A DNA stretch of 36,725 nucleotides from Bdellovibrionales bacterium (GTDB lineage: Bacteria; Bdellovibrionota; Bdellovibrionia; Bdellovibrionales; UBA1609), in NCBI GenBank assembly GCA_028819305.1, contig JAPPLY010000081.1, forward strand, positions 1 through 36,725, written 5' to 3'. Position 1 is the stretch's first letter; each line of letters begins with the position of its first letter. Made by a program: the position numbers and the translations under genes. This document shows positions 1,831-34,805 of the stretch, in pieces. Under the pieces are notes generated by a model. That model did no database searches and was not told the origin of the DNA. It was given only the letters and a program-made list of their open reading frames with translations.

Positions 1831-1946
1831 TATACCGATCCGATATAGAAATCGTGACCTTCAGAAAACCTTTCTACTCTTGGGAGAAAAAAAACGACCA
1901 GAAAACCCTGTCCTCGTGGAAATGGGGATCAAACCGGATCGGTATA
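1831..1946 (+). repeat. 116-bp family B element with 11-bp inverted ends
   Basis: The element starts with TATACCGATCC and ends with the exact reverse complement GGATCGGTATA, giving an 11-bp terminal inverted repeat over 116 bp. Its interior (TTCAGAA, then CCTGTCCTCGTGG, then GGGGATCAAACC) matches the interior of the element at 26787-26944. It ends four bases ahead of the ATG of the TPR gene, so it forms that gene's whole 5' leader. An open frame from a GTG inside it (1854) also runs into the gene. Confidence 0.8.
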
Positions 1947-1949
1947 AGT

Positions 1950-6282: not shown

Positions 6283-6295
6283 GGAAAATCGTAAG

Positions 6296-6330
6296 TAGTC
6301 GGTTCTGAAAAAGTTTTCTTCCTCAAAATT
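6296..6330 (+). repeat. Left end of a family C (MITE-like) element
   Basis: TAGTCGGTTCTGAAAAAGT starts 13 bp after the stop of the second lipoprotein gene and is identical to the left ends at 22460 and 34806. Only the left end is recognisable; the interior and right end are missing or decayed, so this is a truncated copy. Confidence 0.7.
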
Positions 6331-6523: not shown

Positions 6524-6550
6524 CTAGATTCCCGTTTACGCGGGAATGAC
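6524..6550. repeat. Family A palindrome
   Basis: CTAGATTCCCG, loop, CGGGAATGAC. This is a full-length, well-preserved copy of the palindrome, six bases beyond the stop codon of the minus-strand lipoprotein gene, where it could also serve as a terminator stem. Confidence 0.8.
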
Positions 6551-6555
6551 CCGGA

Positions 6556-7158
6556 TTATGTAGCCGCCTCTTTAGTTTCTGGTGTAGGTTCCGGTGCCTT
6601 CTTCTGCACTCCCTGACAACTAGCAAAAGTATAATCTTCTTTTACTTCCCTGTGTTTCGTTAAACAAAAAACCCCTTCATCTATCAGAAGCACCTGGCCA
6701 GAGTTATCTATACTGAGATACTGTTGTTTTACGCAATAGTTTTGAGCTGTAGCATATTGACCCACCCCTGTTCTTATTGGTAATTCAACAAATTTAACCG
6801 TCTCACTAAAATGATAAAACTCCCTCCAATAATCACAACCTTTTTCAGGATAAAATGGAAATATATTCTGGTTATCAACAATAGTACATGACACTTGTTT
6901 TCCAAATGTATTCACCCAAATTTGTTTCCCTTTATCATAAGTATATTGACTGCAATGCGCTACTTGGCCAAGGCCTAAATTACCACTACAAGAGGAAAAT
7001 AACAGTATAAATATATACCCGTAGGGTATTATCCCCTTTTTCATAAGGACAAGCTTTTTCGTACTTTTAGGTTCTTTCCTCTTAGCAGCGGGGCCTTTAA
7101 ATCTGGAATGTTTAAACACGATCGGTATAAGGTTACTCATTAATAATAATAGTTTCAT
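6556..7158 (-). CDS. Unknown lipoprotein with a repeat-derived N-terminus
   Basis: A 200-residue frame overlapping the end of the upstream kinase gene by 26 bp. AGAAGGAAAA directly before the ATG at 7158 is a strong ribosome binding site. The first 40-odd residues, including HSRFKGPAAKRKEPKS, come from a family B element. A second ATG at 7044 begins MKKGIIPYGYIFILLFSSC, a good lipoprotein signal (lipobox LFSSC) whose first residues are also repeat-derived. The secreted product therefore probably starts at 7044, unless translation from 7158 feeds a long pre-signal. The mature protein has about seven cysteines (HCSQY, VSCTI, KGCDY, NYCVK, FCLTK, ASCQG), suggesting disulfides in the periplasm. 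No family is recognised. Coupling to the kinase suggests a shared pathway. Confidence 0.7.
   Translation of the reverse strand: MKLLLLMSNLIPIVFKHSRFKGPAAKRKEPKSTKKLVLMKKGIIPYGYIFILLFSSCSGNLGLGQVAHCSQYTYDKGKQIWVNTFGKQVSCTIVDNQNIFPFYPEKGCDYWREFYHFSETVKFVELPIRTGVGQYATAQNYCVKQQYLSIDNSGQVLLIDEGVFCLTKHREVKEDYTFASCQGVQKKAPEPTPETKEAAT
7014..7129 (-). repeat. Family B element (KRKEPKS type), 116 bp
   Basis: Runs from TATACCCGTAGGGTATTA at the left to GATCGGTATAA at the right. The central part GGTTCTTTCCTCTTAGCAGC matches 21282-21301 inside the sensor-kinase gene at about 19 of 20 positions, and matching continues on both sides. Read on the minus strand it encodes FKGPAAKRKEPKS followed by IPYGY. It covers the region between the ribosome binding site and the signal peptide of the lipoprotein gene. 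Confidence 0.85.
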
Positions 7159-9064
7159 TTTTCCTTCTTTCTTTTTTTCTTTTTTGCATAGGAAAACTCA
7201 CTACATTTTTCAAAGATGGCGAATATAGTGTCACTGTTTTATCCTCATAACCTTTTCTTTTAAGGGTCAATCGAAATTTTTTATTACGCGGAACAGTTAT
7301 TGTTGTCGGTGTCAAAAATTCCACTCTTTTACTATTAATATATATTTGTGCCCCAGAAGGTTGCGTAACAAGAAAAACACTTTTTCCTAAAACCGAAGTG
7401 TTAGAGGATACTTTTTTTTGTGGCTTAACTTTCCGAACTAAAGGTGCTGTTTCATCTGATGTAGGCTCTCTCTCAGAAACACCAGGAGTCTTCATTGGCA
7501 AGTCCGGTTCCCGATTTTTGAATATAACATTTACATTTTTTTGTACAAACAATTTTACATTTTTTGGAATAAAAAAATAAGTTAATCCGATAATACTCAG
7601 CACACATAAACTAACTAATGTTTTTTTGGAAGCAAAGTTTCTTCTGTATTTATCTCTCCCTGAAAACGGAACGGTACGATTTTTATCTAACAAAGTGTCC
7701 TTCCAGGGTTGATATTTTGTGGAAGAAGAGGGCCCAGTGTCATCACTTTTTTTAGGAGTTTTAATGACATTACTATATCCATCTGATTCAAGAATGGGTC
7801 GTCCACTCACTTTAGAACCCAGAACATCATCATCAAATGCTGTTTTTGTAATTTCCTGACTAGGAGTTGTCTTTGAACTTGTATCTGCTTGAGTTTCCGT
7901 AGCAGTATAATTTTGTGACTGCGTCTGCGTACTCTGTTGTTCATTGGTATAATTACTGACTGAGCGTGATCTCACTCGATTCTGAGTGGTCTGATATCCT
8001 ACAAATGAGGACTTCCCCGTAACAGTATCATCCTCATCAAACAACGCACTAGACAGATGTTGCGCTGTTTTGAATGATTGTGTTTTAGAACCTAAAGCTC
8101 GTAAATATTTTTTTAAATTTTGTCTTTCTTCCAAAATCTCTTCCACATATACTTCTTTTATAAAAGAATTAAAATGGCCCTCCGTAAACTCAGGATAGAA
8201 TTTATTAAGAAAAACAGACAAATCGCTTCCCATCTCCGCTGCCGTTTTATATCGTAGGTTTTTATTCGCCATCAATGCTTTGTTCACTATCTCCACAAGT
8301 TTATCAGGCACTTGAGAATTCCTTTTTCTCAGGTCAGGAATCCTACAATCTCTGATTTTCTTTAGTAATTGCATTTCATTAGAACCTGTAAATAGCTTTT
8401 TACCTGCCAGTAATTCCCATAATACGCACCCCAAGGAAAAAATATCTGTTTGCTTATCCAACTTTTTACCACTTACCTGTTCAGGACTCATATATTCAAA
8501 CTTTCCTTTTAACACACCAGCCCTCGTAGCTTCAGAGTCATCTATTTTAGCAATACCAAAATCAATAACTTTTATATTACCCTCAAAGCTAACCATTACA
8601 TTTTGAGGACTAATATCACGATGGATAATATTCAAAGGCTGTCCTGTTGTGCTATCTGTACAATTATGAGCATAATCCAACCCATTACAAACGTGTTTGA
8701 TAATATAAGCACAAATAGCTACATCAAGGTTTCTTTTTTGACTTTTTAATTTTTTGGTTAATTGCCTTAAATTTCTTCCGGCAATATACTCCATACAGAT
8801 AAAATACTGATCTTTTTCAATTCCAAATTCATAAATAGAACAAACATTGCTATGATTCAGGTTGACGGCAATTTTCCCCTCATTTTGAAACATTTTGTTA
8901 AACTCTTTATTGTGAGAATGAGCTAATAATATCCTCTTTATGACTACAAATTTATAAGCACTTTCGATTTTTCCCGAACAACCCAGGAAAATCTCAGCCA
9001 TACCACCTCTGGCCACTTGCTTTAAAAGTATAAATTTTCCAAACTTACTTAACTTTAAATCCAT
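7133..9064 (-). CDS. PEGA-domain Ser/Thr protein kinase
   Basis: A 643-residue protein. The Hanks-type kinase domain spans residues 8-295: glycine loop ARGGMAEIFLG (18-28), ATP-binding Lys43 in VVIK, catalytic HRDISPQN (148-155), DFG (168-170), and YMSPEQ (191-196). All key residues are present, so it should be active. A long Ser/Thr/Gln-rich linker follows (about 330-470; probable autophosphorylation substrate), then one membrane helix (about 482-501, LVSLCVLSIIGLTYFFIPK) and a PEGA domain (about 560-632, FLVTQPSGAQIYIN) expected outside the cytoplasmic membrane. This architecture is frequent in Myxococcota and relatives. The stop overlaps the following lipoprotein gene by 26 bp, so the two form one operon. 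AGGAAAAGAG lies ahead of the ATG. Confidence 0.93.
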   Translation of the reverse strand: MDLKLSKFGKFILLKQVARGGMAEIFLGCSGKIESAYKFVVIKRILLAHSHNKEFNKMFQNEGKIAVNLNHSNVCSIYEFGIEKDQYFICMEYIAGRNLRQLTKKLKSQKRNLDVAICAYIIKHVCNGLDYAHNCTDSTTGQPLNIIHRDISPQNVMVSFEGNIKVIDFGIAKIDDSEATRAGVLKGKFEYMSPEQVSGKKLDKQTDIFSLGCVLWELLAGKKLFTGSNEMQLLKKIRDCRIPDLRKRNSQVPDKLVEIVNKALMANKNLRYKTAAEMGSDLSVFLNKFYPEFTEGHFNSFIKEVYVEEILEERQNLKKYLRALGSKTQSFKTAQHLSSALFDEDDTVTGKSSFVGYQTTQNRVRSRSVSNYTNEQQSTQTQSQNYTATETQADTSSKTTPSQEITKTAFDDDVLGSKVSGRPILESDGYSNVIKTPKKSDDTGPSSSTKYQPWKDTLLDKNRTVPFSGRDKYRRNFASKKTLVSLCVLSIIGLTYFFIPKNVKLFVQKNVNVIFKNREPDLPMKTPGVSEREPTSDETAPLVRKVKPQKKVSSNTSVLGKSVFLVTQPSGAQIYINSKRVEFLTPTTITVPRNKKFRLTLKRKGYEDKTVTLYSPSLKNVVSFPMQKRKKERRKNETIIINE

Positions 9065-9422
9065 AAATCACTCTTTTCCTAAAACTCATCTGTGCTTTTC
9101 ACTTGAAGTTAAAATATTTTATACACAGTCTAAATAAGGGTTAAGCCCATAAAAAATACAAATTATACCGAACAGGTCAGAAACCCCTGTTTCCCGTTCC
9201 CCGAGGACAGTTTTCACGAGAAAAAGCTTCAAAAGGGACAGGGTTGCGCCCTCCGCACTCCCTTCGCCATTAGGAAGAAGCTTACAGAAACCACAAAACC
9301 CTGTTCCCACAAAAGCGGTGATTAAACAAAATAATAAAAGCGTTCTCCCATTGATTTACAAAATAAACACATTTATAGTGTTCACATCCTAAATATTCTA
9401 ATCATTATGATTTTTATCGGTT
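9065..9422. other. Divergent spacer between the kinase gene and coaE
   Basis: It holds a family B element at 9164-9300 and otherwise AT-rich DNA. Promoters for the divergent kinase and coaE genes must lie here; I see no convincing boxes. A 63-codon frame on the minus strand inside the element (9119-9310) has no support as a gene. Confidence 0.5.
9164..9300 (-). repeat. Family B element (YRTG type), possibly two nested copies
   Basis: On the minus strand it begins GTGGTTTCTGTAAGCTTCTT, passes through GTGCGGAGGGCGCAA and ends GACCTGTTCGGTATAA. The same modules in the same order occur at 10053-10124 and 19609-19684. The middle is about 55 bp longer and contains CTGTCCTCGGGG, similar to the interior of the 1831-1946 element, so it may be one family B element inserted in another. 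Confidence 0.7.
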
Positions 9423-10037
9423 ATGAGAAATAAGAACTTTATAAATAAAATAGCCATAACCGGCCTAATCGGATCAGGAAAATCCACGGTGGGCCTGATA
9501 TTAACAAAAAAGGGAATAAATTTTATTTCTACTGATGAATTAGCAAAACAAGCTATTATACCCCCCAGCACAGGCTACCATAAACTACTTAAATTAATGG
9601 GACCGGAATATCTCACAAAAGACCATTTTTTTGACACCTCAAAAATAGCTAAAGAGGCTTTCCAAAACGGTTCTTTACTGAAACAAATAGAAGATATTAT
9701 TCATCCTATTATTCAAGATTTAATGAGGAAAAAAAACCAAGAACTGCTTTTTTCAGGACAACATAGTGTTTTTTATGAAGTACCCTTGTTATTTGAAAAA
9801 AAATGGGAACCTTTTTTTGATACCTATGTTGTTATAGCTATTGACCCTGCAAAACAAATGAAACATCTTAAAAAAAATCGCACTATTGATATCAAAGACA
9901 TAAAAAATCGAATGAGATTTCAGATGTCCCAAGAAAAGAAAATAAAAAAAGCAAACTATGTAATATGGAATAATTCATCACTAACAGATTTGGAAAAACA
10001 GGTCTTTAGTTTAATTAACTTAATAGGAGTGTGCTAA
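9423..10037 (+). CDS. coaE: Dephospho-CoA kinase
   Basis: A 204-residue protein of normal length. It transfers phosphate from ATP to the 3'-hydroxyl of dephospho-CoA, the last step of coenzyme A synthesis, in the cytoplasm. Visible motifs: P-loop GLIGSGKST (14-22), ISTDELA with the conserved Asp (38), the HPII stretch of the CoA-binding helix, and VFYEVPLLFEKKW, the typical V-x-D/E-x-PLLFE motif (here Glu in place of the common Asp). QKKLKKANYVI-type C-terminal sequence (EKKIKKANYVIWNNSS) matches the family ending. The ATG at 9423 has no strong ribosome binding site. The AddB-like gene follows 94 bp downstream, with a family B element in between. Confidence 0.92.
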   Translation: MRNKNFINKIAITGLIGSGKSTVGLILTKKGINFISTDELAKQAIIPPSTGYHKLLKLMGPEYLTKDHFFDTSKIAKEAFQNGSLLKQIEDIIHPIIQDLMRKKNQELLFSGQHSVFYEVPLLFEKKWEPFFDTYVVIAIDPAKQMKHLKKNRTIDIKDIKNRMRFQMSQEKKIKKANYVIWNNSSLTDLEKQVFSLINLIGVC

Positions 10038-10052
10038 TCTGGTTTGGATTTT

Positions 10053-10124
10053 GTGGTTTCTAAAGCTTCTTCTGGAGAGTGAATAGAGGGCGGAGGGTGC
10101 AAATTACATACCGATAAGGTATAA
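10053..10124 (+). repeat. Family B element (YRTG type)
   Basis: GTGGTTTCTAAAGCTTCTTC, then GGCGGAGGGTGCAAATT, then the palindromic end ATACCGATAAGGTAT. It fills the gap between coaE and the AddB-like gene and ends eight bases before the AddB-like start codon, so it supplies that gene's leader. Confidence 0.8.
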
Positions 10125-10131
10125 AGTAAAA

Positions 10132-12924
10132 ATGTTGGAATTCATCACCACTTTAGATACAAAAGCCAAAAAAAAAATTCTAAAAAATTTTACCCCTAAA
10201 GATAGTTTGTGGGTGACTTCCGATGTCAAATCCCGTCTCTTTATCATTGCTCAACTAACAAATAAACAATCACCCTATAAATCTAATATCCTAAGAGCTA
10301 CAGACTGTTGGTCCCAGTGGCTATCCGCTGCTTATCCTGAATTTTCTATCATTCCTCGATCCTTTCTCATTCTCATCTACCAAAAATGGGCACAAAATCG
10401 AACACAAGAGTGGCAAACCAGAAAAGAAACAGGATCTCTTTTATGCCAGTATATGGAAGCACTGGCCCATCTGCTCAAACACCCTCTCAGAGATAATCTT
10501 ATAGAAGAATGGAAAGCCGCCACAGTAAAAGCATCAACAGACCTTCATTGGTCCAGGTGGTACCACCTAGCTTCTGATTTCCAGTCCTATCTGGAACAAC
10601 AAAAAATCATTGAATCTTCCTGGGCCGGGGCTTTTTTATTGGATAATATTCCATTTAAACATATCCCGTTTAAAGAAGTTATTTTTGACTTAGGATTCAA
10701 TATAAACAGATGGGAAGGAGAATTAATCCAACAACTAGCTACTAAAATCAATACTAAAGTATTGGTTCCTTTTTTTATTGAAAATACATACCAAAATGAA
10801 ATTTATTCTATTTACAACCGGCTATACAAAACAGATCAGGTATCCCCATCTTTACGGAGACCAGTTTGCAAATTCCAAATAAATACACAACCTGTTTCAA
10901 AGAACATAAAGCTTAAAAAATTTATAACTCCCCTTGCTGAAGTAAAAGACATAAGTAGTTGGGTGAAAAATCTGCTAAATAAAGGTACTAAACCAAATAG
11001 AATTTGTGTGCTGGCTCCTCATATTGAAGATTATTGGACCTGCTTGAAAAGCTATTTCAAAAGAGAAGATATTATCGTCAATAAAGGAGAGTCTGTTTCT
11101 TTAAGCAGCATTCCTATCGTGCAATTATGGTTTGCAAAGATGCAAACACATCTATCCATTCTGAAGTATGAAAACCTGGAAACCATCTACTCTTATGAAA
11201 ATCGGGATGTCCATTTTAACCAACTAAAATCGGACTTTTATCATATAAAAAAAATAGAAAATGGGCCGTCTGAAATATACATAAAAAATAAATTAAAAAA
11301 CATAAATGAAGAAGTAACAGCTGATACTTTTATGAAATGGGCTTTGGAATTTTTACCGCAAAAAAAGAATGTGCCTATTGCCATTCAAAAGGCGATAAAA
11401 AAGTGTATAGATAATTTTTCGCAAACAACAAAAATAACAAAACAACATCTTAAATGGCCCTCCTGGCTCCATTTATTGAAGTCTTTTATCAACAAAAGCG
11501 AAATAGAGATACAAGCTGGTCATCCAAAAGGTATAAACTGCCTCAGCTTCAACGCCATTGGATGGTTGGAATCTGATTTTATCTATATTGCCGGTTTAAG
11601 TGAACAAAATATAAAAATACATAACTTTATTTCTTCCTTATCTACTGATTCTATTATGAAAAATTTGGGTTTTTTCATAAAATCCGAATCTGTTGATAAA
11701 TGGGAGCAAGTCATTAACTATTTTATCCAACAAAAAAACAAAGAATTTATTTTATCTTTTTCCTCTACAAATTTTTCTGGAACTCCTTTAAACCCTTCCT
11801 GTTTATGGTTGGAAAAAGCCATAGAATATAAAAAAGATATAAATCACCTGGATACATCTGGTATGACTTTATGGGATCAAAAACAAAGACAATCATCCAT
11901 ACGGGATATTATGTCCCATAATCCTGAACAACAAGCACAATGGAAATGTGTGGAGCAATCCATTCATGAGGATTTAGGTTACAAAACAATAACTCCCTTT
12001 GCACAACAGAGAGTAAAGATGCTATCCCCTTCCTCTTTAGAAGACTATATTAAATGTCCTTTTATTTTCACAGCTAAACATCTATTTTATTTATGGGATG
12101 GACCAACAAGAGATATGGATATTCCTATAAGTGAAAAAGGAAGTATAGTGCATAAACTTTTTGAAATTTTAAAGTGCAAAAACAATGGCTTCCTGTTTGA
12201 AAGTGACGGAAAAATAATACCCGATGAGTATATTTTAAAAATAATAGAAGATATAAAAACAAGTAAAAAATTTAAAAAACAAATAAACAAAATACATCCT
12301 GTTATTTGGGAAAAACAAAAAACATGGTTATTGAACAGGGCTCTTATTTTCTTAGAAAAAGAAAAAATAAAAAAACATCTATTTGAAAACTACAAAACGA
12401 TTGCTTGCGAAAAAAAGTATAACTGTTATTGGAATTTTAAAACAGCATCGCCTGATAGTAAGGGTGACATTATTTTTAAAGGAAAGATAGATCGTATTGA
12501 TTCAAATAATCAATCTTATCAAATTATTGATTATAAAAACTCTCTACCTACCGGATCTGTAGCTCCTTCCTGGTCTAGTCAAGACTGTTTTCAAATGGCC
12601 TTCTACGCACAAGTTTTAGAGAGAGGGTTAACGAACCTTCCTCCTCTTCCTGTACAATCTGCTCTTTACTTAAGTTACAAAAGTTTTGAGCACCAAGGAC
12701 TGGCTTTAAAAAAGCCCCCTTACATTCAACTCTTAGGAAGTTCAAAAAAAAAATCTCTTATTTCAGAAGAATTAAAACAAAAAATTTTTACAAGTGTTAA
12801 TAAAAAAGCAAACTCTTTCATTTTAAACATCCATAAAGGGTATTTCCCGGCGCATCCTAAAACAAAAACCCTTTGCACAAAATGTAAATGGAGAAAAATA
12901 TGCCGTGCCAGTCACCTAAATTAA
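10132..12924 (+). CDS. AddB/RexB-like PD-(D/E)XK exonuclease
   Basis: A 930-residue protein paired with the helicase gene 40 bp downstream, in the usual addB-addA order. The C-terminal 300 residues form a PDDEXK_1 nuclease: LSPSSLEDYIKCP (about 634-646), GSIVHKLFE (about 670), FKGKIDRIDS (about 782) and IIDYKNS (about 798; Asp and Lys catalytic), then QMAFYAQVLE. A Cys in KCP plus three C-terminal cysteines (LCTKCKWRKIC) form the AddB-type iron-sulfur cluster. The N-terminal two thirds resemble the inactive helicase half of AddB, and I see no Walker A, so ATP-driven movement must come from the partner. The expected role is processing of double-strand DNA ends for RecA loading. The family B element upstream leaves no visible ribosome binding site. 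Confidence 0.85.
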   Translation: MLEFITTLDTKAKKKILKNFTPKDSLWVTSDVKSRLFIIAQLTNKQSPYKSNILRATDCWSQWLSAAYPEFSIIPRSFLILIYQKWAQNRTQEWQTRKETGSLLCQYMEALAHLLKHPLRDNLIEEWKAATVKASTDLHWSRWYHLASDFQSYLEQQKIIESSWAGAFLLDNIPFKHIPFKEVIFDLGFNINRWEGELIQQLATKINTKVLVPFFIENTYQNEIYSIYNRLYKTDQVSPSLRRPVCKFQINTQPVSKNIKLKKFITPLAEVKDISSWVKNLLNKGTKPNRICVLAPHIEDYWTCLKSYFKREDIIVNKGESVSLSSIPIVQLWFAKMQTHLSILKYENLETIYSYENRDVHFNQLKSDFYHIKKIENGPSEIYIKNKLKNINEEVTADTFMKWALEFLPQKKNVPIAIQKAIKKCIDNFSQTTKITKQHLKWPSWLHLLKSFINKSEIEIQAGHPKGINCLSFNAIGWLESDFIYIAGLSEQNIKIHNFISSLSTDSIMKNLGFFIKSESVDKWEQVINYFIQQKNKEFILSFSSTNFSGTPLNPSCLWLEKAIEYKKDINHLDTSGMTLWDQKQRQSSIRDIMSHNPEQQAQWKCVEQSIHEDLGYKTITPFAQQRVKMLSPSSLEDYIKCPFIFTAKHLFYLWDGPTRDMDIPISEKGSIVHKLFEILKCKNNGFLFESDGKIIPDEYILKIIEDIKTSKKFKKQINKIHPVIWEKQKTWLLNRALIFLEKEKIKKHLFENYKTIACEKKYNCYWNFKTASPDSKGDIIFKGKIDRIDSNNQSYQIIDYKNSLPTGSVAPSWSSQDCFQMAFYAQVLERGLTNLPPLPVQSALYLSYKSFEHQGLALKKPPYIQLLGSSKKKSLISEELKQKIFTSVNKKANSFILNIHKGYFPAHPKTKTLCTKCKWRKICRASHLN

Positions 12925-12964
12925 ATAAAAAAAACCAGTAACAACAAACAGAACGGATATAAAA

Positions 12965-15277
12965 ATGAACATTATAAAAGCAGGCGCAGGGGCAGGAAAA
13001 ACAACTACTCTTATCAAGATACTAATAAAACATATACGGGATTATTATGTAGAAAAACAGACATTTCCCCGTGTAGCCGTCAGTACTTTTACACGCAAAG
13101 CCACTCGTGAACTCAAAGAGCGCATGATAGTAAAAGCCATTGAGCTAAACGATCAGAACCTTATTCAATATGTTAGTTACTCTCCTCAATTGCAAATTTC
13201 TACACTACATGGAATCTTTAATCAATTCATTCAAACTTATGGATACATAATGGGATTTAGCCCAGGTGTATCTATTATGAGTGAAAAAGAATCACATGAG
13301 CTTTTTGTCTCTATCTTAAAAAATGTCTTATTTGAACAAAAAATAGGCACAACCTTACTCGATCACTACTCCTTTGAAGAAATGACCGCTATCGTAAAAC
13401 AATATATTTCCTATATTCAAAATCAACCAACAAGGTCTCCATTTAATAAAGAAGAAATGCAAAAGTTAATAATAGATAAAAAACAGGAGTGTTTAAACAG
13501 AATGCCAGTAAAACAAAGTGGGAAATACAGGAAAGCACTTTTAGAGCTGGAAAAAGAAGAAGCGAACATAAATATATTCTCTCACTTGTGTCTGGAATTA
13601 CAAACTTTAGGTCAAAAAATGATTCCGATATGGAATCAGGAAAAAAAAGCCCTCAGTCAGATTACACTAAATGATATGGAAACCCTTACTATGGCTATTC
13701 TCAATTTAAAAGAAGTATCCCTGCCTAGCTTCGCGAAGATTAAACAAGATCAATATAAATGGGATTTCTGGTTTCTGGACGAATATCAGGATATCAGTCT
13801 TATACAAAATCATATTCTAAATAAGTTAAGTAAAGATAGTCAGGTTTTTATCGTAGGAGACCCTCAGCAAAGTATATACTATTTTCGAGGAGCCTCCACC
13901 TCTGTTTTTCAAAAGAAAGAAGAAGAAGCTAAACAAAATAAAAATTCCCAGGTACAATATTTAACAAAAAACTATCGGTCCTGTCCTGAATTAATAGCCT
14001 TTTTCAACGATTTTTTTCCAGAAGAAACATTCAAAAAGATGGATTCTGTGAATGATAATTATACAAAAGAAAAAGAAGTCGTATTTTTTAATGTAAAAAC
14101 AAAAGGTTCCAGTGTACCGAACTTAGAAAAAACGATACTTTTGGAAGAAAAGGCAAAATCACCGGCATTTTTAACTACAAACCTTATAAGAATATCCTCC
14201 AAAATAACCAAAGAAGAAAATGAATGGAAAGCGGTACTGAATAGAGTTAATAATCTGTTGAAACAAGGAGTAAACCCAGGGGAAATAGCTATTTTAGCCA
14301 GACAAAACAAAGCCCTTCAACAATTGGCCTGGTATTTAAAAAAACATCAACTCCCTATACATCTCCATTCTAGCGGCAGCTTTAAAAATAGAAGAGAAGT
14401 AACAGATGCTTTATTCCTTTTACGCTTTCTTTTAAATCCCCACGATAACGAAAACTTGATTGGCCTTTTAAGAACACCTTACTGTCGCATCCTCGATCAA
14501 ACATTAGTAAATTGGATACAAAAAAATCAACAATATCAATCCCTCTGGAATTTTTGTATAAAAGAAGCCTGTCTGCAGCCGATAGTGCGGCAATTAAAAA
14601 ATCACTTGGAAAATACCCATAAAATAGGAGTCACATTGAGCTTTCAACAAGCTCTTTTAGATTTAAGTTTTATTGATTTATCCTATTATCAAGATCCTAC
14701 AGGAGTACGGGAAGCTAATATATGGAAACTGATTTATTGCTTAAAAGATTATGAGCAACGAGAACAAAGTAATTTATTTGCTTTTGCTGACTATCTCTTT
14801 TTTGATAGCATGGGTACAGAATCAGATGATAATGCAAATTATTCTCAAAATGCAATATCGGCTATTGAAAGCACAGGGATTCAGCTTATGACTATCCACT
14901 CCGCTAAAGGCCTGGAGTTTAAACATGTTATACTGATAAAAATGGGAGCTGGGTTTAGAGCTACAGAGGGATTACAATACTTCATGGGAGACAAAGAGAC
15001 AGGCAAATGGACTTTGTCTGTAAAATCCAAGATAGAAGATAAAAGAATTAAATCTTCTGCTCATAAGAAAATTCAAGAAAAGCACAAGGAAAATGAATTA
15101 AAAGAATTTGATCGTCTATTGTATGTAGCTATGACAAGAGCTAAAGAAACTCTATCCCTTATTGGCTTGGAAAAACCAGAAAAAAATAGTTGGGCTGAGC
15201 GATTTTCCTTCTTTTCCCACCTTAAACCAGGCTCTCATCAAACAAAATATTACACATACTCTGTCAGCGAGGATTAG
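12965..15277 (+). CDS. AddA-like UvrD-family helicase lacking a nuclease domain
   Basis: A 770-residue superfamily 1A helicase. Motifs in order: I AGAGAGKTTT (6-15), Ia STFTRKATRELKER, II DEYQD (272-276), III VGDPQQSIYYFRG, IV NYRS, V TIHSAKGLEF (about 641-650), VI LLYVAMTRAKE (about 718-728). Every catalytic motif is intact. Typical AddA/RexA is about 1,150-1,240 residues and ends in its own PD-(D/E)XK nuclease. Here the protein stops about 50 residues after motif VI, so only the AddB-like partner would carry a nuclease. It sits 40 bp after the AddB-like gene and the two probably act as one complex at DNA ends. It converges on the GYF_2 gene with a 30-bp gap and no obvious terminator. Confidence 0.88.
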   Translation: MNIIKAGAGAGKTTTLIKILIKHIRDYYVEKQTFPRVAVSTFTRKATRELKERMIVKAIELNDQNLIQYVSYSPQLQISTLHGIFNQFIQTYGYIMGFSPGVSIMSEKESHELFVSILKNVLFEQKIGTTLLDHYSFEEMTAIVKQYISYIQNQPTRSPFNKEEMQKLIIDKKQECLNRMPVKQSGKYRKALLELEKEEANINIFSHLCLELQTLGQKMIPIWNQEKKALSQITLNDMETLTMAILNLKEVSLPSFAKIKQDQYKWDFWFLDEYQDISLIQNHILNKLSKDSQVFIVGDPQQSIYYFRGASTSVFQKKEEEAKQNKNSQVQYLTKNYRSCPELIAFFNDFFPEETFKKMDSVNDNYTKEKEVVFFNVKTKGSSVPNLEKTILLEEKAKSPAFLTTNLIRISSKITKEENEWKAVLNRVNNLLKQGVNPGEIAILARQNKALQQLAWYLKKHQLPIHLHSSGSFKNRREVTDALFLLRFLLNPHDNENLIGLLRTPYCRILDQTLVNWIQKNQQYQSLWNFCIKEACLQPIVRQLKNHLENTHKIGVTLSFQQALLDLSFIDLSYYQDPTGVREANIWKLIYCLKDYEQREQSNLFAFADYLFFDSMGTESDDNANYSQNAISAIESTGIQLMTIHSAKGLEFKHVILIKMGAGFRATEGLQYFMGDKETGKWTLSVKSKIEDKRIKSSAHKKIQEKHKENELKEFDRLLYVAMTRAKETLSLIGLEKPEKNSWAERFSFFSHLKPGSHQTKYYTYSVSED

Positions 15278-15307
15278 AAAAACTTTTTTATTGATTTTAT
15301 AACAGCC

Positions 15308-16990
15308 TTACTCTTGCTGTTTATTTTCTTTGAGCATTTTATCAACAAAAAGCAAAGGGCTATAGCGTGTTTTCACATCCAGGGCAAAGCCACGATCAAC
15401 ATATCCTCTGGCATCCATATACTGCCCTTGATTATATTTAACAAAGGCCAGCCCTCCTAAACCGGAAAGAGAATCAGGCACATTATTTAATACCACACGC
15501 CAATTTTTAAAAGCGCACTCCCAATCCATGGCTCTTTCACAAAACTGAGCCTGTAAAATATAAGGCAACACATACAGCCTATCAGAATCAGATCGAATAA
15601 CATCACCTAAAATTAAAACAGACTGATTCTTAAGGTTAACAAGATCAGTAATATACACCTGTACGGATTTAACCAATATATCGGTAGAATCAATTAATGT
15701 GGCTTTTGTGATAAAACTTTGCGCTAATTCGTAACGATAGGAACGAGCTAAACAGTAAGCATAAAAAGCAACAAATAATTTATGACCTTCATTATAAGAG
15801 TAAATCTTTTCACATAAGGGCAGTAGATCAGGCCATGAGTAAGTTTTCTTATCAATGAAAATATTATAATAATAACTGTCTGTTAAATGAGGGTTGCTAT
15901 CTAAAAACTTTTTAATTACAGGAGTCACCTCTTCTCCTTTTTGCAGCTGAATATAGATGAGACCTAAAAGAGCTTCCTGATAATAGTCACGTGGTTCTTG
16001 AGTTATCTCTTTTAACAAATCCTCAGCTTTATTTTTCTGATCTTCTGTTAAAGTATTTAATTGAAGAAGACATAAAGAAAAAGCGAAATAAATTAAACGC
16101 TTGTTTTTTAAAATATCCTCTTTATAATTTTCAAAAAAATCACATTTGCCTATTTTTGCGGAAGTTAAAGCTAAATTAGCAAAAGCAGATTGTTTGATTA
16201 CTGTTGACTGACCATCACTCACTAATTGATTTAACAACTGCCTAGCAGAGGACCAAGCATCTGTTTTTATTTGTACCAAAGCTTGAACTATTTTTGTCAC
16301 TTCATCAGAAGGAATCTGCTGCCTCTGTCCTAAACTGACCAAGGCCGCAGCTTTAGACAATTCATTATTTAACTGAAACTGTAGAGCCTGAAATAAGTTT
16401 TCATCATCCTTACTGAGACTGTTTTTCTCGCTTTCCCCTTTCCATATCCGAAGAGCTTCTGAATAGCTTCCCACAGAAAAATGATTGTAGCCCAGGCGAG
16501 ATAATGTATGCTTATCTTCACCCTTGTGCTTATTCGGGTAAGGAAATAGGAAAAACAAACCAACAATAAAAATAGATAAAACCAACATCGCAGTTAAAAA
16601 GAAATAGGATTTGCGCTTAGGCTTTACAGGGATACGCAATTCCGGGTTTTCCTCTATGATCTGATAAGGCATACCCTGCTCCGTAGAAGTGTGTTCACCT
16701 TTTTTCTCCACTCCTGGAGCCGTAGATTTTCCGGTAAATGTTCCTGTCTTTGTAAAACCCGTTTTTAATGAAGAGGTGTATTGCGTTAATTTAGTAATGT
16801 CTGTGTAATTCGCAAACTCAGGATACGCGGCTATAAAAATCCAAAATTCCTGCCCTGGGACACAGGCTGTAGCAACAGGAGAGATATAGCCTTTTGACAG
16901 TTGCTCTTTCACCTCATTTTCCGTAAAAGGGCCTATAATCTGATCATTATTTCTGATTAACCATTTTTTATCTTCACTTTGATTGGACAT
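15308..16990 (-). CDS. GYF_2-domain membrane protein with TPR-like repeats
   Basis: A 560-residue protein. Residues 8-58 match GYF_2/DUF4339 (KWLIRNNDQIIGPFTENEVK, then PGQEFWIFI), a small protein-interaction domain. A polar linker follows, then one membrane helix (about 128-148, FFLTAMLVLSIFIVGLFFLF) after a PKRK stop signal, so the GYF_2 domain should be cytoplasmic and the rest periplasmic. The C-terminal 400 residues are helical TPR/Sel1-like repeats (YNHFSVGSYSEALRIWKGE; AFVKYNQGQYMDARGYVDRG). GYF_2 plus TPR proteins are often seen in Bdellovibrionota and Myxococcota, but their function is unsettled. The ATG has a modest AGAGAAAA upstream. It is separated from purH upstream by a 143-bp repeat-bearing gap. 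Confidence 0.8.
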   Translation of the reverse strand: MSNQSEDKKWLIRNNDQIIGPFTENEVKEQLSKGYISPVATACVPGQEFWIFIAAYPEFANYTDITKLTQYTSSLKTGFTKTGTFTGKSTAPGVEKKGEHTSTEQGMPYQIIEENPELRIPVKPKRKSYFFLTAMLVLSIFIVGLFFLFPYPNKHKGEDKHTLSRLGYNHFSVGSYSEALRIWKGESEKNSLSKDDENLFQALQFQLNNELSKAAALVSLGQRQQIPSDEVTKIVQALVQIKTDAWSSARQLLNQLVSDGQSTVIKQSAFANLALTSAKIGKCDFFENYKEDILKNKRLIYFAFSLCLLQLNTLTEDQKNKAEDLLKEITQEPRDYYQEALLGLIYIQLQKGEEVTPVIKKFLDSNPHLTDSYYYNIFIDKKTYSWPDLLPLCEKIYSYNEGHKLFVAFYAYCLARSYRYELAQSFITKATLIDSTDILVKSVQVYITDLVNLKNQSVLILGDVIRSDSDRLYVLPYILQAQFCERAMDWECAFKNWRVVLNNVPDSLSGLGGLAFVKYNQGQYMDARGYVDRGFALDVKTRYSPLLFVDKMLKENKQQE

Positions 16991-17077
16991 AACGATATTT
17001 TCTCTTTTTCAAATTCTTTTGTCACTTATAAATTATAAAGTATAACTAAAATAATAACTTGTTATTAACGACTATTA

Positions 17078-17127
17078 TAAACCCAAAAGGTTTGCCCCCC
17101 GTTTCCACGGGAATCAAACACGACCAG
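17078..17127. repeat. Family A composite repeat
   Basis: AAACCCAAAAGGTTTG followed by CCCCGTTTCCACGGGAATC and CAAACACGACCAG. The first module recurs at 25177-25212 and 33325-33361 joined to the same palindrome. The CAAACACGA tail is the outer end of family B as seen at 7113-7121 and 36414-36422. The copy stops a few bases before the purH stop codon. Confidence 0.7.
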
Positions 17128-17133
17128 TCTAAA

Positions 17134-18747
17134 TCAATGTGAAAAACACCTTTGTCCTGTAAAAACCATATTAACCGACAAAGATTTAGCCTTTGAAATA
17201 ACTTCTTCATCTCTCAAAGAGCCACCTGGTTGAATAATCCATTGAATTCCAACACGAGCCGCTGCCTCCACAGAATCAGGAAAAGGAAAGAAGCCATCAC
17301 TAGCCATCACAGGTATAGAAAGACCGGAATGAAAGGATTTCCATTTTTGAATAGCTATTTCCACTGATGAAATACGATTTACTTGTCCCATACCAAGGCC
17401 CACCGTTTGATTACCAGACACTAAAGCAACAGCATTACTTTTTAAATGAGCACAAACCTTCCAGGCCATTAGCAGCTCTGACTGAACAGAAATATCTGGT
17501 TTTTTCCCTATATATTGCCAATCTTTTTGCCACTCCTTGTTAATTTTTTGAACGTCCTGTACTAATAAACCTCCATCCACACAATGTATATCCATCCGAT
17601 TTGAGTTTTCCGTTTGTCCCTTTTTTTCTCCTAAGGGAAAAGAAGTTCTGAAGGATGCCTTCTCTATACCTGTTCGGTATAATTCCTTTTGGCTATTATT
17701 ATACATGATTAATTCCGGCCACTTCATAATACGCAAATTCTTCTTTTTACTTTTAAAAAAAGCCAAAGCAGAATCACTATAATCAGGGGCTATAACCGCT
17801 TCCAGAAAAAGAGAACTTAATATTTGGGCTGACTTTTCAGAAATAAATCTGTTAGTAGCTATTACAGCCCCAAATACACTGACAGGATCCGCCTTTAGGG
17901 CTAAACGAATAGCTGTTTCCAACTGGCTGTTATAAGCCACTCCACAAGGATTATTGTGTTTAACGGCTACACAACAAGGTTTTCTGAACTCTCGCACAGT
18001 AGAAACAGCGGAATCTAGATCACAAATATTATTAAAAGACAGCTCTTTTCCTTGTAGGCAAAGAGCCTGATGAAGACCTGTTTTTTCCAGCTGAAACCAA
18101 CTAGCCTTTTGACCAGGATTTTCACCATAGCGTAGATTTGTGTAAAAACGACCTTTCAAATATAAACTTCTTTTCTCCTCCTGAGACTTTGCTTGCATCC
18201 CATCTGCAATACAGAAATTATAATCCGCCAACATAGAAAATACTTTTCCTGCTAGCTGCTTTCTTTTCTCCAAACCAGGTATTTCTCCTTCATTTAAAAT
18301 ACATTGATAATCTTCAGGGTTACACAATACAGTTACATACTTAAAATTTTTAGCCGCTGCCCGTAGAAGGGAAGGGCCACCTACATCAATCCATTCCACT
18401 AAATTTTTCTTTTCTTGATGCTTTGCATCTTCAAAAGGATATAAATTACATACCACCAAATCAAATGGGGAAAGTGCCGCGTCCTTCAGTACTTTTACAT
18501 CATCTTTCTTATCGAGGCGCGCTAAAAGAGGCATATAAATATAGGGATGTAAAGATTTCACTCGTCCATCCATTACCTCTTCAAAACCTGTCTGCTGACC
18601 TACTTCCACAACAGAAATACCTGCCTTCCTCAAATGAAGGGAAGTGCCACCTGTAGAAACCACACGCATACCCTGACGGGCTAAGGGACGAATGAAGTCC
18701 ACCAGACCTTCTTTATTGCTCACACTAACTAAGGCATTTTTAAACAC
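17134..18747 (-). CDS. purH: Bifunctional AICAR transformylase / IMP cyclohydrolase with a repeat insertion
   Basis: A 537-residue PurH, catalysing the last two steps of IMP synthesis. The N-terminal cyclohydrolase domain begins NALVSVSNKEGL and has STGGTSLHLR and VDVGGPSLLRAAAKN-type sequence; the transformylase domain has the catalytic VKHNNPCG (Lys263-His264), GENPGQK and FTGQRCF. Starts with GTG; AAAGGGAG lies about 12 bases upstream. Oddities: the usual VKTLHP-x-x-H-G-G is VKSLHPYIYMPLL, and the usual NPHQ is NPGQ. An insertion at residues about 356-384 (LYRTGIEKASFRTSF...) replaces a short linker ahead of DGGLLVQD and derives from a family B element. The protein is otherwise complete. 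It is monocistronic between repeats. Confidence 0.93.
   Translation of the reverse strand: MFKNALVSVSNKEGLVDFIRPLARQGMRVVSTGGTSLHLRKAGISVVEVGQQTGFEEVMDGRVKSLHPYIYMPLLARLDKKDDVKVLKDAALSPFDLVVCNLYPFEDAKHQEKKNLVEWIDVGGPSLLRAAAKNFKYVTVLCNPEDYQCILNEGEIPGLEKRKQLAGKVFSMLADYNFCIADGMQAKSQEEKRSLYLKGRFYTNLRYGENPGQKASWFQLEKTGLHQALCLQGKELSFNNICDLDSAVSTVREFRKPCCVAVKHNNPCGVAYNSQLETAIRLALKADPVSVFGAVIATNRFISEKSAQILSSLFLEAVIAPDYSDSALAFFKSKKKNLRIMKWPELIMYNNSQKELYRTGIEKASFRTSFPLGEKKGQTENSNRMDIHCVDGGLLVQDVQKINKEWQKDWQYIGKKPDISVQSELLMAWKVCAHLKSNAVALVSGNQTVGLGMGQVNRISSVEIAIQKWKSFHSGLSIPVMASDGFFPFPDSVEAAARVGIQWIIQPGGSLRDEEVISKAKSLSVNMVFTGQRCFSH
17605..17684 (+). repeat. Family B element (YRTG type) inside purH
   Basis: On the plus strand, TTCTCCTAAGGGAAAAGAAG, then TTCTGAAGGATGC, then TACCTGTTCGGTATAA. 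The right end matches 19668-19684 in the GGDEF gene almost exactly (CCTGTTCGGTATAA). Read on the purH strand it starts LYRTG, the same peptide in the same frame as in the GGDEF protein. It lies ahead of the conserved DGGLLVQD motif. Confidence 0.75.
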
Positions 18748-18851
18748 TTTTTATTTACACTCCCTTTAATTAGTCACCCCAGAAAAAATTTCTTATTCAA
18801 AATGTTGCCAACAAGAGAGAAAAATTTCAGACATGCGTTTTACCACCAAAC

Positions 18852-18925
18852 AGGAAGGCAATGATTTGCCTTCCCGTCCTGTGAAAGCGGGGAACGATCG
18901 GTATATATCACCAAACCGGTATAAT
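18852..18925. repeat. Mosaic of hairpin, family A and family B ends
   Basis: GGAAGGCAA-TGA-TTTGCCTTCC hairpin (18852-18873), directly joined to a family A palindrome in reverse orientation (CCCGTCCTGTGAAAGCGG), then GAACGATCGGTATA and, 12 bp on, CCGGTATAATC. It fills most of the purH / GGDEF gap. All modules are found elsewhere in the window in other combinations. Confidence 0.75.
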
Positions 18926-18936
18926 CTAAAAACAAT

Positions 18937-20046
18937 TTATGTTAAATCTCTTAGACTATTTACCGTATTTTGAACTAAAAAATCCGGTTTAAATCCTACG
19001 ACCGGAGTAGCAACAGCTGTCATATTACCATCGCATTCATCATGAGCAAAAGACAAAGCTTTTAAAGTAGATTGAAAAAGACTGTCTGCTGAACGATTGA
19101 CCCGAGGGTACTCAGCCAAGCCCAAGCTGAGTGTTAATCGCCCGTGAGACGGAAACACCTTAGAAAAGTCCGCAGATTCCACAGACCATCTGATTTGCTC
19201 TGCCTTCATACTAGCCCCTCTCTCAGAAGTATGCGGCAAAATAAGCCCCAAATATCCTTCCGGCCAAGCACCGAGAATATCATAAGCTCGGCTGTCTTTT
19301 ACCATATTATTCATAAAGGATTTTATAAAAAGTCCCGTTTTATAAGAGCCATACACAGATTCTAAAGTTTTTAATTGATCTAGTCGTAACAAAATAAGAC
19401 TCAATGGCAGCTGTAATCGGCGTGCCCTGGAAAATTCTACAAATAATTGTTTGAGAAAATACCTTTTATTGAAACAACCAGTTAGCCCGTCTATAGGACT
19501 ATTCTTCTCCCATTTGTCCTTCCATAAAAACTCCTTTACATAACTTTGTAAGACAAAAAGCTGATCCCAAACCATAGAAGAGTCTGATATACTAATCTTA
19601 TTTGAATTGTGTGGTTTCTGTACACTTTTTCCCACGGATGAACGGAGTTCGGAAGGTGCAAATTCCTGACCTGTTCGGTATAAAAAAGCAAACAAAGCTA
19701 TTACCTTTTTATTAAACACCAAAGGAAAATATTGATATTCCTGAGTGTTAAATAATTTTTGTACCTGAGAATGAAATACCGAAATCTGTTTTGGATTATA
19801 TAACTGTGCGGGATCAAAGGAAGGATCTGACTCATACAATCGGAAACAAAGAGTGTCATCCACTTCCAGATGGTTACTTTGTTTTAAAGATAACCAACCA
19901 GGAAAACTTTGATATTCAAAGTATAATACAGGAAATCCCGATGTTTTTACAAAAAACTCAATAGAAGAGGAAAAAGAATTATGATTTTTTAACTCCTTTA
20001 TCCATTCCGCAAAAGAATTTACTTTACCTCTATTATCTACAGTCAA
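18937..20046 (-). CDS. Degenerate GGDEF-domain protein
   Basis: A 369-residue soluble protein. Residues about 185-350 are clearly GGDEF-like in fold sequence (DGLTGCFNKRYFLKQL, then LSLILLRLDQLK, then ILPHTS and LTLSLGLAEYP), but the signature GGDEF is WPEGY (261-265) and the substrate-binding N/D of the D-x-D-x-F-K-x-x-N-D segment is replaced (RLDQLKTLESVYG). It should therefore not make cyclic di-GMP and may work as a binding or scaffolding domain. The N-terminal 170 residues may be GAF-like, but weakly. Residues about 122-147 (LYRTGQEFAPSELRSSVGK) derive from a family B element. The start overlaps the end of the sensor-kinase-like gene by 14 bp, so they are coupled and probably function together. 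Confidence 0.8.
   Translation of the reverse strand: MTVDNRGKVNSFAEWIKELKNHNSFSSSIEFFVKTSGFPVLYFEYQSFPGWLSLKQSNHLEVDDTLCFRLYESDPSFDPAQLYNPKQISVFHSQVQKLFNTQEYQYFPLVFNKKVIALFAFLYRTGQEFAPSELRSSVGKSVQKPHNSNKISISDSSMVWDQLFVLQSYVKEFLWKDKWEKNSPIDGLTGCFNKRYFLKQLFVEFSRARRLQLPLSLILLRLDQLKTLESVYGSYKTGLFIKSFMNNMVKDSRAYDILGAWPEGYLGLILPHTSERGASMKAEQIRWSVESADFSKVFPSHGRLTLSLGLAEYPRVNRSADSLFQSTLKALSFAHDECDGNMTAVATPVVGFKPDFLVQNTVNSLRDLT
19609..19684 (+). repeat. Family B element (YRTG type) inside the GGDEF gene
   Basis: On the plus strand, TGTGGTTTCTGTACACTTTT, then GAACGGAGTTCGGAAGGTGC, then AAATTCCTGACCTGTTCGGTATAA. It aligns along its whole length with 10053-10124 and with the minus strand of 9164-9300. 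It is antisense to the host gene, and the frame stays open and reads LYRTGQEFAPSELRSSVGK. Confidence 0.85.
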
Positions 20047-21655
20047 TGTAAGGTTCCTTTAAAGGTGTTTTAAAACTTTTTACATGAGCAATATAATCCA
20101 AAGGAATAAACAAACACACTTTTACCCCTCCCCCTTCGGAAGATTGCAACTTTACAATACCTCCCATACGAGACAATACGGATTGCACAAAAGGAAGTCC
20201 TAATCCGGTAGAATGTTTTTTTGTTGTAAAATGAAGCTGACCGGCTTTCTCCATGGTCTGTTTATCCATTCCTGGTCCCTCGTCTTCCACTTCACAACAA
20301 AACCATCTATTGTGCTTTTTAAATGTGCGAATGGTCAATGCACCTTCTTGACCGGAAGGCAGGGCTTGAGCTGAATTTTTAATCAACTCCCACAGAGATT
20401 GAAATAATTTATCTGAAAAAACAGGTAAATCTATATCTGAAGCTAATTCCCGATGTATTTTCAAATGAGAGTAATTATTCCTGCTTTTATCAATAACCCT
20501 ATTCACAATTGCCAAAAAAGTAGGTTCTACGATGGAGATACCGGATCTTTGTTCTTTATTCTTAGAGACATGTAAAACAGTGGTTAGAGCCTTCCGCATC
20601 CTTTTTAAATAAGGATTATTAGTATGAGCTAAATAGGATAAAGCTTTTTTTTGTTCCATTGTATTTTTACTAAAGGGAGAATACAAACTAACAGCAGAAG
20701 GCACCATCTTTGAAAGAAAGGTATTCCATCGTACTAAGCTGCCTCCAGAACCAAAGAGATAAAATAAAAAATCAGCAGCAGACATAAAAGACCTTAGGTA
20801 GAAAAAAATAAATAAAAATAAAATAGTAAAAACCATCATACTAAAAAGAGCTGTTTTCTTAAAATGAGATAAAAAAAACAAGCTGGTTTTTTGCGTTGGC
20901 TGACTGGCTATCAAAAAATATTTCTTATCGGGGATACTAACCACATTGGAGAGTTCCCTTTGTTTTGCCATTTCTTTCAACGGTAGGGTTCCATGATTGT
21001 TCGGAAAAATCAAACTCTTTGGATTTATATTGATAGGTCGAGCGACAGTGATTAAAGAAGAAGCCTTCCCGTTTTCAGCAACAATCCGATTCCACCCCTT
21101 AGGATACCGTTTCATTAAAGAAAGAAAATAAGAAGATAAAGGTAACTTTTTATTTCTGTAGTGAGACTCGGAATGCAAAAGAATCCGTCCAGAGTCATCA
21201 ATAAGAAAAACAGACCGTCCCTTTCCTACTTTGAAAGTCTTCGACATATACCCATCGGGTATTACTTTTCCGTAACTTTTCGGTTCTTTCCTCTTGGCAG
21301 CCAAACCTTTAAAACCGGAATTTTCAAAATTCTTAAATAGGTCCCCATAAAAACGAGGATTCCCCATCGGTTCGTTATAAAGAGAGAAAATCTCCTGCAA
21401 TTCAGAAACAGTTGATTTTTTACCTTTTTTCTTGAACAAGGGCTGTTTTAAATCAGATGAGTAAAAACCTGTTGCGCTTAAATAAGTTTGAATATGCCTG
21501 TAAATAACTAAAAACTGCTCCGTCAAATAGATTTGACTCTGATGATTAAAATGCCGGCTCTGATAAACGGAAAAAAACCAAGAAAAACAAAAAAAGAAAG
21601 ACAAAATACTTATTAGAAGGATGACAGATAGCTTTAACCAAAATCGTTGTTTCAT
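20033..21655 (-). CDS. Two-TM sensor protein with a GHKL histidine-kinase ATPase domain
   Basis: A 540-residue protein. Membrane helices lie at about 8-30 and about 275-295, enclosing a periplasmic sensor region of about 240 residues that includes FLIDDSGRILLHSE, as in Cache-type sensors. The C-terminal HATPase_c domain is complete: N box ELIKNSAQAL (about 423), G1 DEGPGMD (about 458), G2 STGLGLPF (about 485) and GGGVKVCLFIPL. I cannot find a convincing H-box (H-E/D-[LIV]-R-x-P) between the second helix and the ATPase, so the phospho-acceptor is unclear. No response regulator lies nearby. Residues 111-138 (NSGFKGLAAKRKEPKS...IPDGY) derive from a family B element. The downstream degenerate GGDEF gene overlaps by 14 bp. 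Confidence 0.85.
   Translation of the reverse strand: MKQRFWLKLSVILLISILSFFFCFSWFFSVYQSRHFNHQSQIYLTEQFLVIYRHIQTYLSATGFYSSDLKQPLFKKKGKKSTVSELQEIFSLYNEPMGNPRFYGDLFKNFENSGFKGLAAKRKEPKSYGKVIPDGYMSKTFKVGKGRSVFLIDDSGRILLHSESHYRNKKLPLSSYFLSLMKRYPKGWNRIVAENGKASSLITVARPININPKSLIFPNNHGTLPLKEMAKQRELSNVVSIPDKKYFLIASQPTQKTSLFFLSHFKKTALFSMMVFTILFLFIFFYLRSFMSAADFLFYLFGSGGSLVRWNTFLSKMVPSAVSLYSPFSKNTMEQKKALSYLAHTNNPYLKRMRKALTTVLHVSKNKEQRSGISIVEPTFLAIVNRVIDKSRNNYSHLKIHRELASDIDLPVFSDKLFQSLWELIKNSAQALPSGQEGALTIRTFKKHNRWFCCEVEDEGPGMDKQTMEKAGQLHFTTKKHSTGLGLPFVQSVLSRMGGIVKLQSSEGGGVKVCLFIPLDYIAHVKSFKTPLKEPYIDCR
21247..21336 (-). repeat. Family B element (KRKEPKS type) inside the sensor-kinase gene
   Basis: Starts TATACCCATCGGGTATTAC, contains CGGTTCTTTCCTCTTGGCAGC, and fades out in AAAACCGGAATTTTCAAAATTC. 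It lacks the roughly 20-bp stretch found between these parts at 7014-7129. The frame read is the same as in the lipoprotein gene, giving FKGLAAKRKEPKS followed by IPDGY, in the periplasmic sensor region. Confidence 0.85.
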
Positions 21656-21727: not shown

Positions 21728-21841
21728 TTTATTTAAAATAAAACTCTAAAATGTGATAAAGCTTTTCTCCCCCTCCCGGGCTGTGAAATTCAAACTCCTC
21801 TCCTGTTTTTCGACCAATGAGGCTACGAGCCAAAGGAGAAT
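21728..21841 (-). pseudogene. greA: Orphan copy of the greA 3' end
   Basis: Matches 24537-24650 at 113 of 114 positions (21780 G versus 24589 A). On the minus strand it encodes the last part of GreA from SPLARSLIGRKTGEEF to the stop codon. Similarity ends abruptly at 21841/21842. It has no start and is not expected to be expressed as a protein. Confidence 0.92.
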
Positions 21842-24493: not shown

Positions 24494-24537
24494 TATTAAA
24501 TTTGGTAAAACATACACCTTTTAAAGTATATGAACCT

Positions 24538-34721: not shown

Positions 34722-34805
34722 AAAAATCTAAAAAATACTATAATCCTAAAAAGCGTCCGTCTGGACTTCGATTTTACTCTGTTCAATACAATGAAGCAGG
34801 TTATA

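Follow-up and report, generated by a model that had tools for sequence, protein, structure and literature searches.

Until now, the invasion of conserved genes by palindromic DNA that keeps the reading frame has been regarded as peculiar to Rickettsia and Wolbachia, and the Rickettsia palindromic elements (RPEs; RPE-1 and others) were reportedly described by Ogata et al. in 2000 and 2002. TA-flanked MITEs of bacteria include Correia/NEMIS of Neisseria and RUP of Streptococcus pneumoniae, and an IS630-type enzyme has been proposed for RUP. RPEs are 100-150 bp repeats of Rickettsia and Wolbachia that lie within preexisting ORFs, the frame of which they do not destroy (PMC3767692). Of those first described in R. 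conorii, nearly half lay in ORFs, and a 2024 review termed a similar process elsewhere conceivable (PMC10969869). REP elements of the GTAG and CGTC families also occur within ORFs, and the residues that they encode have been argued to be tolerated in loops (PMC3733652).

The window analysed here, which is the whole stretch of 36,725 nucleotides, carries copies of a repeat that behaves in a comparable manner. Our preferred explanation, to which we assign a probability of roughly 0.85, is that it is a non-autonomous, MITE-like mobile repeat of ~93-116 bp, which, within the genomes searched, is private to its species and has spread into both genes and intergenic regions. The copy number, the single sense frame, the empty orthologous sites, the intact hosts and the contrast in indels between genic and intergenic copies are established, as are the TA flanks, the restricted distribution and a left end common with intergenic repeats of a sister genus.

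Copies, reading frame and host genes

Two copies in the window were recognised at the outset. The first is a long-form copy of 116 nt (TATACCGATCGTG...GGGTATA; 7014..7129, minus strand), which is read in frame within a lipoprotein precursor gene (6556..7158, minus strand; 200 aa, lipobox LFSSC) and gives the 38-aa segment IPIVFKHSRFKGPAAKRKEPKSTKKLVLMKKGIIPYGY; nothing in a Pfam search matched this precursor. The second, a short-form copy (~21247..21331, minus strand), is likewise in frame in the gene of a membrane sensor histidine kinase (20033..21655, minus strand; 540 aa, HATPase_c PF02518), within its periplasmic part, where it encodes FENSGFKGLAAKRKEPKSYGKVIPDGY and has a missing or degenerate left TATACC end (TTTAAGAAT). 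The lipoprotein ORF contains HSRFKGPAAKRKEPKS... and the kinase ORF NSGFKGLAAKRKEPKS..., so the in-frame placement of both elements given in the initial annotation is confirmed, as is their relatedness in DNA: they are 81% identical over 54 nt, and a search of the whole genome with the kinase copy retrieves its lipoprotein counterpart (E=4e-10), a likeness that, given ~41 copies genome-wide, is far beyond chance. The reported span 7014-21336 is not a single feature but covers two separate elements, which are of different length classes.

The lipoprotein copy splits the signal-peptide region and includes an in-frame ATG (7042-7044, minus strand) followed by MKKGIIPYGYIFILLFSSC, a plausible complete lipoprotein signal peptide, and the start codon of this host may thus come from the repeat; an alternative start is the upstream ATG at 7158, which has a better Shine-Dalgarno sequence. 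Because the copy splits the signal peptide and holds a possible start codon, the lipoprotein argues less strongly for internal insertion than do the kinase and the enzymes described below. Two further copies were found in the window. A partial right-end copy (...NNGFLFESDGKIIPDEY; ~12184..12232, plus strand) lies in frame in an AddB-like nuclease gene, with a net gain of 8 aa over both same-genus orthologues, and a degenerate long-form copy of the non-coding class (1831..1947, plus strand) is intergenic, immediately upstream of, or overlapping, the start of a TPR-protein ORF (1854-3164), the true start of which is probably the ATG at the right end of the copy.

When the kinase copy served as a DNA query against the whole 1.98-Mb genome (one species; a draft of 88 contigs, 92.9% complete), ~41 copies were found, the closest being 93% identical to the query, and a protein profile search of the same genome raised the number further, with profile matches weaker than ~E=1e-6 less certain. 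Extraction of the copies and their alignment in register gave the short-form DNA consensus TATACCGATCGTG-TTTGAAAATTCCGGATTTAAAGGCTTGGCTGCCAAGAGGAAAGAACCGAAAAGTTACGGAAAAATAATACCCGATGGGTATA, and the consensus peptide is IPIVFENSGFKGLAAKRKEPKS-YGK-IIPDGY, a hydrophilic, lysine-rich sequence; the single orientation and frame that encode it are free of stops over the whole length of the repeat. Elements fall in a size class of 93-116 nt; counted from ATACC to GGTAT, the inserted length is 93 nt for the short form and 114 nt for the long form, corresponding to 31 and 38 codons, and the long form carries an extra hairpin, with GTACGGAAAAGCTTGTCCCCGTGAAAACGGGGAT preceding the last palindrome of the repeat. 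When predicted folding was compared with that of shuffled sequences, the short consensus was no better (z=-1.2) and the long one better (z=-2.9), with z=-2.0 and +0.2 for the window copies. Rfam matched nothing within the window, and a consensus RNA structure for the repeat, being without covariation support, was rejected.

The protein profile places at least 22 strong copies inside long ORFs, all in one orientation and one frame, along with several weaker in-ORF matches; roughly half of the readily found copies sit in frame inside working genes. Six-frame analysis around each DNA-defined copy placed all 17 sense copies in long ORFs in the same frame (f0), and no long ORF passed through the repeat in either of the other two sense frames. 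A genome-wide search with tabulation of frames had been proposed in the initial annotation, and it returned every sense copy in a long ORF, among the ~41, in one frame. Sense copies outnumber antisense ones by 17:1 (P=1.4e-4). The antisense case (C9:263), in an MFS-transporter ORF, uses the open antisense frame of the consensus, which yields the aromatic-rich peptide IPIGYYFSVTFRFFPLGSQAFKSGIFKHDRY; that the lone clear example of such a peptide occurs in a membrane transporter fits with tolerance deciding survival.

The hosts of the repeat had been described as envelope proteins. This proved too narrow, for the repeat is carried by EF-G, GcvP, chorismate synthase (AroC), RNase R, FeoB, farnesyl-diphosphate synthase (IspA), ETF-ubiquinone oxidoreductase (ETF-QO) and MltG, as well as by a PQQ dehydrogenase, an SNF2-type helicase, TamB and an RNase H/AAA helicase; judging from the ORFs, PheT, Lnt, DsbD and MurI are hosts as well. 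EF-G, GcvP, AroC (TIGR00033), RNase R, FeoB and MltG are intact and pass their family cut-offs. The EF-G host, an essential translation factor, scores 879 bits against the equivalog model TIGR00484 (cut-off 659) and is the str-operon fusA, adjoining rpsG (S7) and rpsL (S12); each genome also has a second EF-G paralogue that is only ~44% identical. Copies are N-terminal in the lipoprotein, MltG, two further ORFs (C14:10208 and C72) and a mevalonate-type kinase (C37).

Several other repeated or extra segments were noted. A predicted shikimate kinase/dehydrogenase fusion (L061:3736-6372, minus strand; contig C11 of G000, ~51.6 kb) has ~120 extra residues, composed of several repeat fragments, between the P-loop and the next conserved region, and Pfam SKI matches it only from profile position 17. 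The PurH gene of the window (17134-18747, minus strand) contains a 31-aa segment, ~YNNSQKELYRTGIEKASFRTSFPLGEKKGQTEN (17588-17681), that includes the palindrome TATACCGAACAGGTATA and is absent in both same-genus orthologues. It has the length of the antisense repeat, yet gapped alignment of the two is no better than with shuffles, and, aligned without gaps, 37 of 78 positions outside the palindrome are identical (empirical 3e-4, post hoc); the segment may belong to a second family of protein-invading repeats or descend from a very old antisense insertion of the present one. A REP-like palindrome, CTAGATTCCCGCTTGCGCGGGAATGAC, is read in frame as LDSRLRGNDS in ORF 385-1551 (codons near 1376-1405) and has intergenic copies at 166-192, 242-268 and 6524-6550. 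A 114-nt stretch from the 3' end of a GreA-like gene recurs ~2.8 kb away, beside the histidine-kinase locus (21728-21841 and 24537-24650; 99% identical), and represents a recent partial duplication. Finally, a dispersed intergenic repeat of 83 nt starting TTATGTAGTCGGTTCTGAAAAAGT occurs at 22455-22537, 34801-34883 and 6292-6314, with 87% identity between two copies.

Borders, empty sites and movement

The insert is absent at 12 sites in orthologues from two same-genus genomes (G001 and G002), which bears out the clean insertion that the initial annotation had expected of an alignment with relatives. Three of these empty sites are in EF-G (~80% identical), the kinase and the lipoprotein; the other nine orthologues, retrieved with a joined-flank query, are those of GcvP, AroC, RNase R, FeoB, IspA, ETF-QO, the PQQ dehydrogenase, TamB and a helicase. 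Conserved residues often flank the insert directly on both sides, as in RNase R, where SIG[IPIG...PDEY]IKIKLSE compares with SMGIKIRLSE in a same-genus orthologue, and in the PQQ dehydrogenase, where DNPFV[FENS...]..ALPEIW compares with DNPFVSVENALPEIW. Alignments with PDB homologues break or are gapped at the insert in EF-G, AroC, GcvP, RNase R and ETF-QO, while in FeoB and the FPP synthase the region that can be aligned stops or starts beside it. As far as the alignments tell, the insertion sites are loops, linkers or N-terminal tails.

The repeat has the ends TATACC...GGTATA. With the borders set at T|ATACC and GGTAT|A, a T precedes ATAC at 16 of 17 left ends and an A follows GTAT at 26 of 29 right ends, which suggests TA targeting and a possible duplication of the TA target; the ends are themselves TA/AT repeats, and the orthologues that show the empty sites are only ~60-80% identical. 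The terminal inverted repeats (TATACCGATCG and the reverse complement TATACCCATCG) are short and imperfect. In several copies the TATACC left end is lacking or has given way to a different palindrome (CCCCGC...GCGGGGACAAGG); the mobile unit is therefore not fixed and the units are mosaic. Movement would be by transposition with help supplied in trans, for which the TA flanks suggest an IS630/Tc1-type enzyme. The Y1/RAYT transposase (PF01797), the sole family searched, was absent from the 92.9% complete genome and detected in five controls, and mobilisation by such an enzyme was rejected on the absence of PF01797.

Recombination between short homologies, rather than transposition, could also spread the element or replace host DNA, and we regard this as improbable. 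It draws on the empty EF-G site of the relatives (L083 and L084, compared with the occupied L058), which reads TTTGAAAAT AAA TTTAAG GAA ACTATACC..GATGAA and so resembles both element ends, on the presence of GTTGAAAAT at the empty PQQ-dehydrogenase site, and on several copies that start exactly at TTTGAAAAT without a TATACC end. These resemblances at two sites were, however, spotted after the fact, the RNase R, TamB and AroC sites have no evident resemblance to the element ends, and most full-length copies have TA flanks. The empty EF-G site hints at homology-assisted insertion or at an origin of the core in EF-G.

Selection on genic and intergenic copies

Frame-shifting indels are found in none of the 22 in-gene copies (21 sense and one antisense; one copy has a 6-nt in-frame deletion) and in 19 of the 20 intergenic copies (Fisher P=4e-11), which lie mostly between ORFs and not in broken genes. 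The coding long forms all have AGTACGG, whereas nearly all intergenic long forms have AGTTACGG, which is one base longer and out of frame. The contrast in frame between genic and intergenic copies reflects survivorship and not targeted insertion, since a frameshifted sense copy would break its gene. In the coding copies, internal stops are absent against ~4.4 expected (P=0.0065), third-position changes are in slight excess (16.3% vs 12.3%, P=0.07) and the synonymous fraction reaches 0.33, compared with 0.27 when changes are placed at random (P=0.02). Taken together, the indel, stop and synonymous results indicate that openness of the frame is enforced and the identity of the residues only weakly; the codon-level selection that the initial annotation had proposed to look for is thus present but weak. 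No orthologue carries KRKEPKS at the same place, the frame preference among surviving copies is absolute and the hosts are intact, each of which agrees with that annotation.

Could the segment instead be a functional peptide, a tag or an interaction or localisation motif selected in each host, the usefulness of which drives its spread? Peptide identity of 60-90% among copies and the slight excess of synonymous changes are what such a motif might leave, but common DNA ancestry accounts for the similarity, and the divergence of genic copies over the shared core (13.6%) is near that of intergenic ones (16.4%). The hosts, moreover, have no function or compartment in common, and insertions are rarer in genes than the 86% coding fraction predicts, a depletion that is expected if most genic insertions are lost. 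We consider a selected motif a poor candidate.

We propose instead the following course for a mobile repeat whose inserts are tolerated. Insertion in the right frame, in a loop, linker or N-terminal tail, would lengthen the host protein by 31 or 38 residues while introducing neither a stop nor a frameshift, and that protein would survive. As one frame encodes a stop-free, hydrophilic peptide, insertions in loops and linkers could survive, while those in other frames would carry stops and be removed by selection. The insert would be translated and retained in the protein as a tolerated passenger, not a useful domain, in keeping with the hydrophilic sense peptide and its placement in permissive sites. 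The genome would hold a natural set of ~20-30 'domain insertion' events with one peptide, in EF-G, RNase R, AroC, GcvP and others; since close same-genus empty sites are available and the non-coding sibling copies provide a neutral control, the question of whether such inserts are tolerated or later used is directly testable.

Origin and comparison with known systems

A profile search of 368 further genomes from the phylum gave no match at E<=1e-4 and, within the order at E<=1e-3, a single weak one, in G116. This genome belongs to a sister genus in the same family (g24; G115 and G116, L197-L226), which has many palindromic repeats with TATACYGATCGTGTTTGAAWWTTC ends, almost all outside long ORFs and with the ends in places forming inverted pairs ~95 bp long. 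The left 24-27 nt of the protein-invading repeat matches these TATACYGATCGTGTTTGAAWWTTC-type ends. On this match, the TATACYGATCGTGTTTGAAWWTTC-ended repeats of g24 are likely to be of the ancestral type, and the protein-invading family has probably branched off, in this species alone, from an older intergenic repeat. A core-pattern scan of GTDB contigs gave 14 single matches, of which none extends to the full element, the same scan of viral contigs found none, and plasmid and phage DNA searches returned only chance-level matches of 24-27 nt. A match in G012 (L031; 77-81% over 50 nt) is weak, best taken as chance, and was set aside. The sense and antisense peptides matched no model at E<=10 in NCBIfam, a library that presumably includes RPE domain models.

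The independently evolved family suggested in the initial annotation gains support from the absence in the 368 genomes, the unmatched NCBIfam search and the termini common with the sister-genus repeats. We hold it probable, with good confidence, that this is a protein-invading family independent of Rickettsiales, in which a lineage of an ordinary intergenic palindromic repeat, of the kind found in the sister genus, acquired in one species a frame open over its whole length and then spread into 22 or more conserved genes, perhaps 30, among them the str-operon EF-G. That the repeat is a true RPE acquired by horizontal transfer, or that the genome itself belongs to Rickettsiales, is very unlikely: repeats of a sister genus within the family have a matching left end, the peptides have no NCBIfam counterpart, genomes of the family reach 4.1 Mb, and the carrier genome has shikimate-pathway, GGDEF and PEGA-kinase genes, unlike Rickettsia. 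Size and gene content make it very probable that the carrier lies outside Rickettsiales, even though the size class, the behaviour and the kinds of host are alike (PMC3767692, PMC10969869) and PheT is a host in both (PMC3767692 Table 1). Least plausible of all is a survivorship artefact in which gene finders extend through the repeat and either the host genes no longer function or the true protein does not include the insert, as the N-terminal copies could indeed precede a later true start, but EF-G, RNase R, GcvP, AroC, FeoB, TamB, ETF-QO and the PQQ dehydrogenase are conserved on both sides of the insert with a continuous frame.

The mobile, protein-invading repeat displays individual features of several described families. 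In common with Correia/NEMIS and RUP, it is ~100 bp long, with imperfect terminal repeats starting TATA, TA borders and intergenic copies with indels; those elements are, however, overwhelmingly intergenic or disruptive, whereas about half of the present copies are in frame in genes. REPs are likewise small palindromes that occasionally encode residues inside proteins, but they measure 20-40 bp and the GTAG type is linked to RAYT, while the 93-116 bp repeat has no GTAG/CGTC tag that we noted and its genome no Y1 transposase. The QMITEs of Coxiella burnetii are MITEs that give in-frame residues to some proteins, yet they affect functional genes chiefly at the ends, with mid-ORF insertions in hypothetical proteins (PMC5896051), unlike the present repeat, which is often internal in essential enzymes.

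The closest parallel is with the RPEs and their Wolbachia counterparts (WPEs), which are also ~100-150 bp long, present in many copies, in frame in unrelated conserved genes with a family-specific peptide, and found between genes as well. The present repeat differs in having no detectable relation to the RPE peptide models that we take NCBIfam to hold, in being weakly palindromic overall with two length forms, in its confinement to one species, the same-genus relatives of which lack it, and in the TATACC...GGTATA ends common with intergenic repeats of a sister genus. The family acts like an RPE yet, judged by sequence, appears unrelated, and a second, apparently unrelated case would make the in-frame invasion of conserved genes a repeatable evolutionary route.
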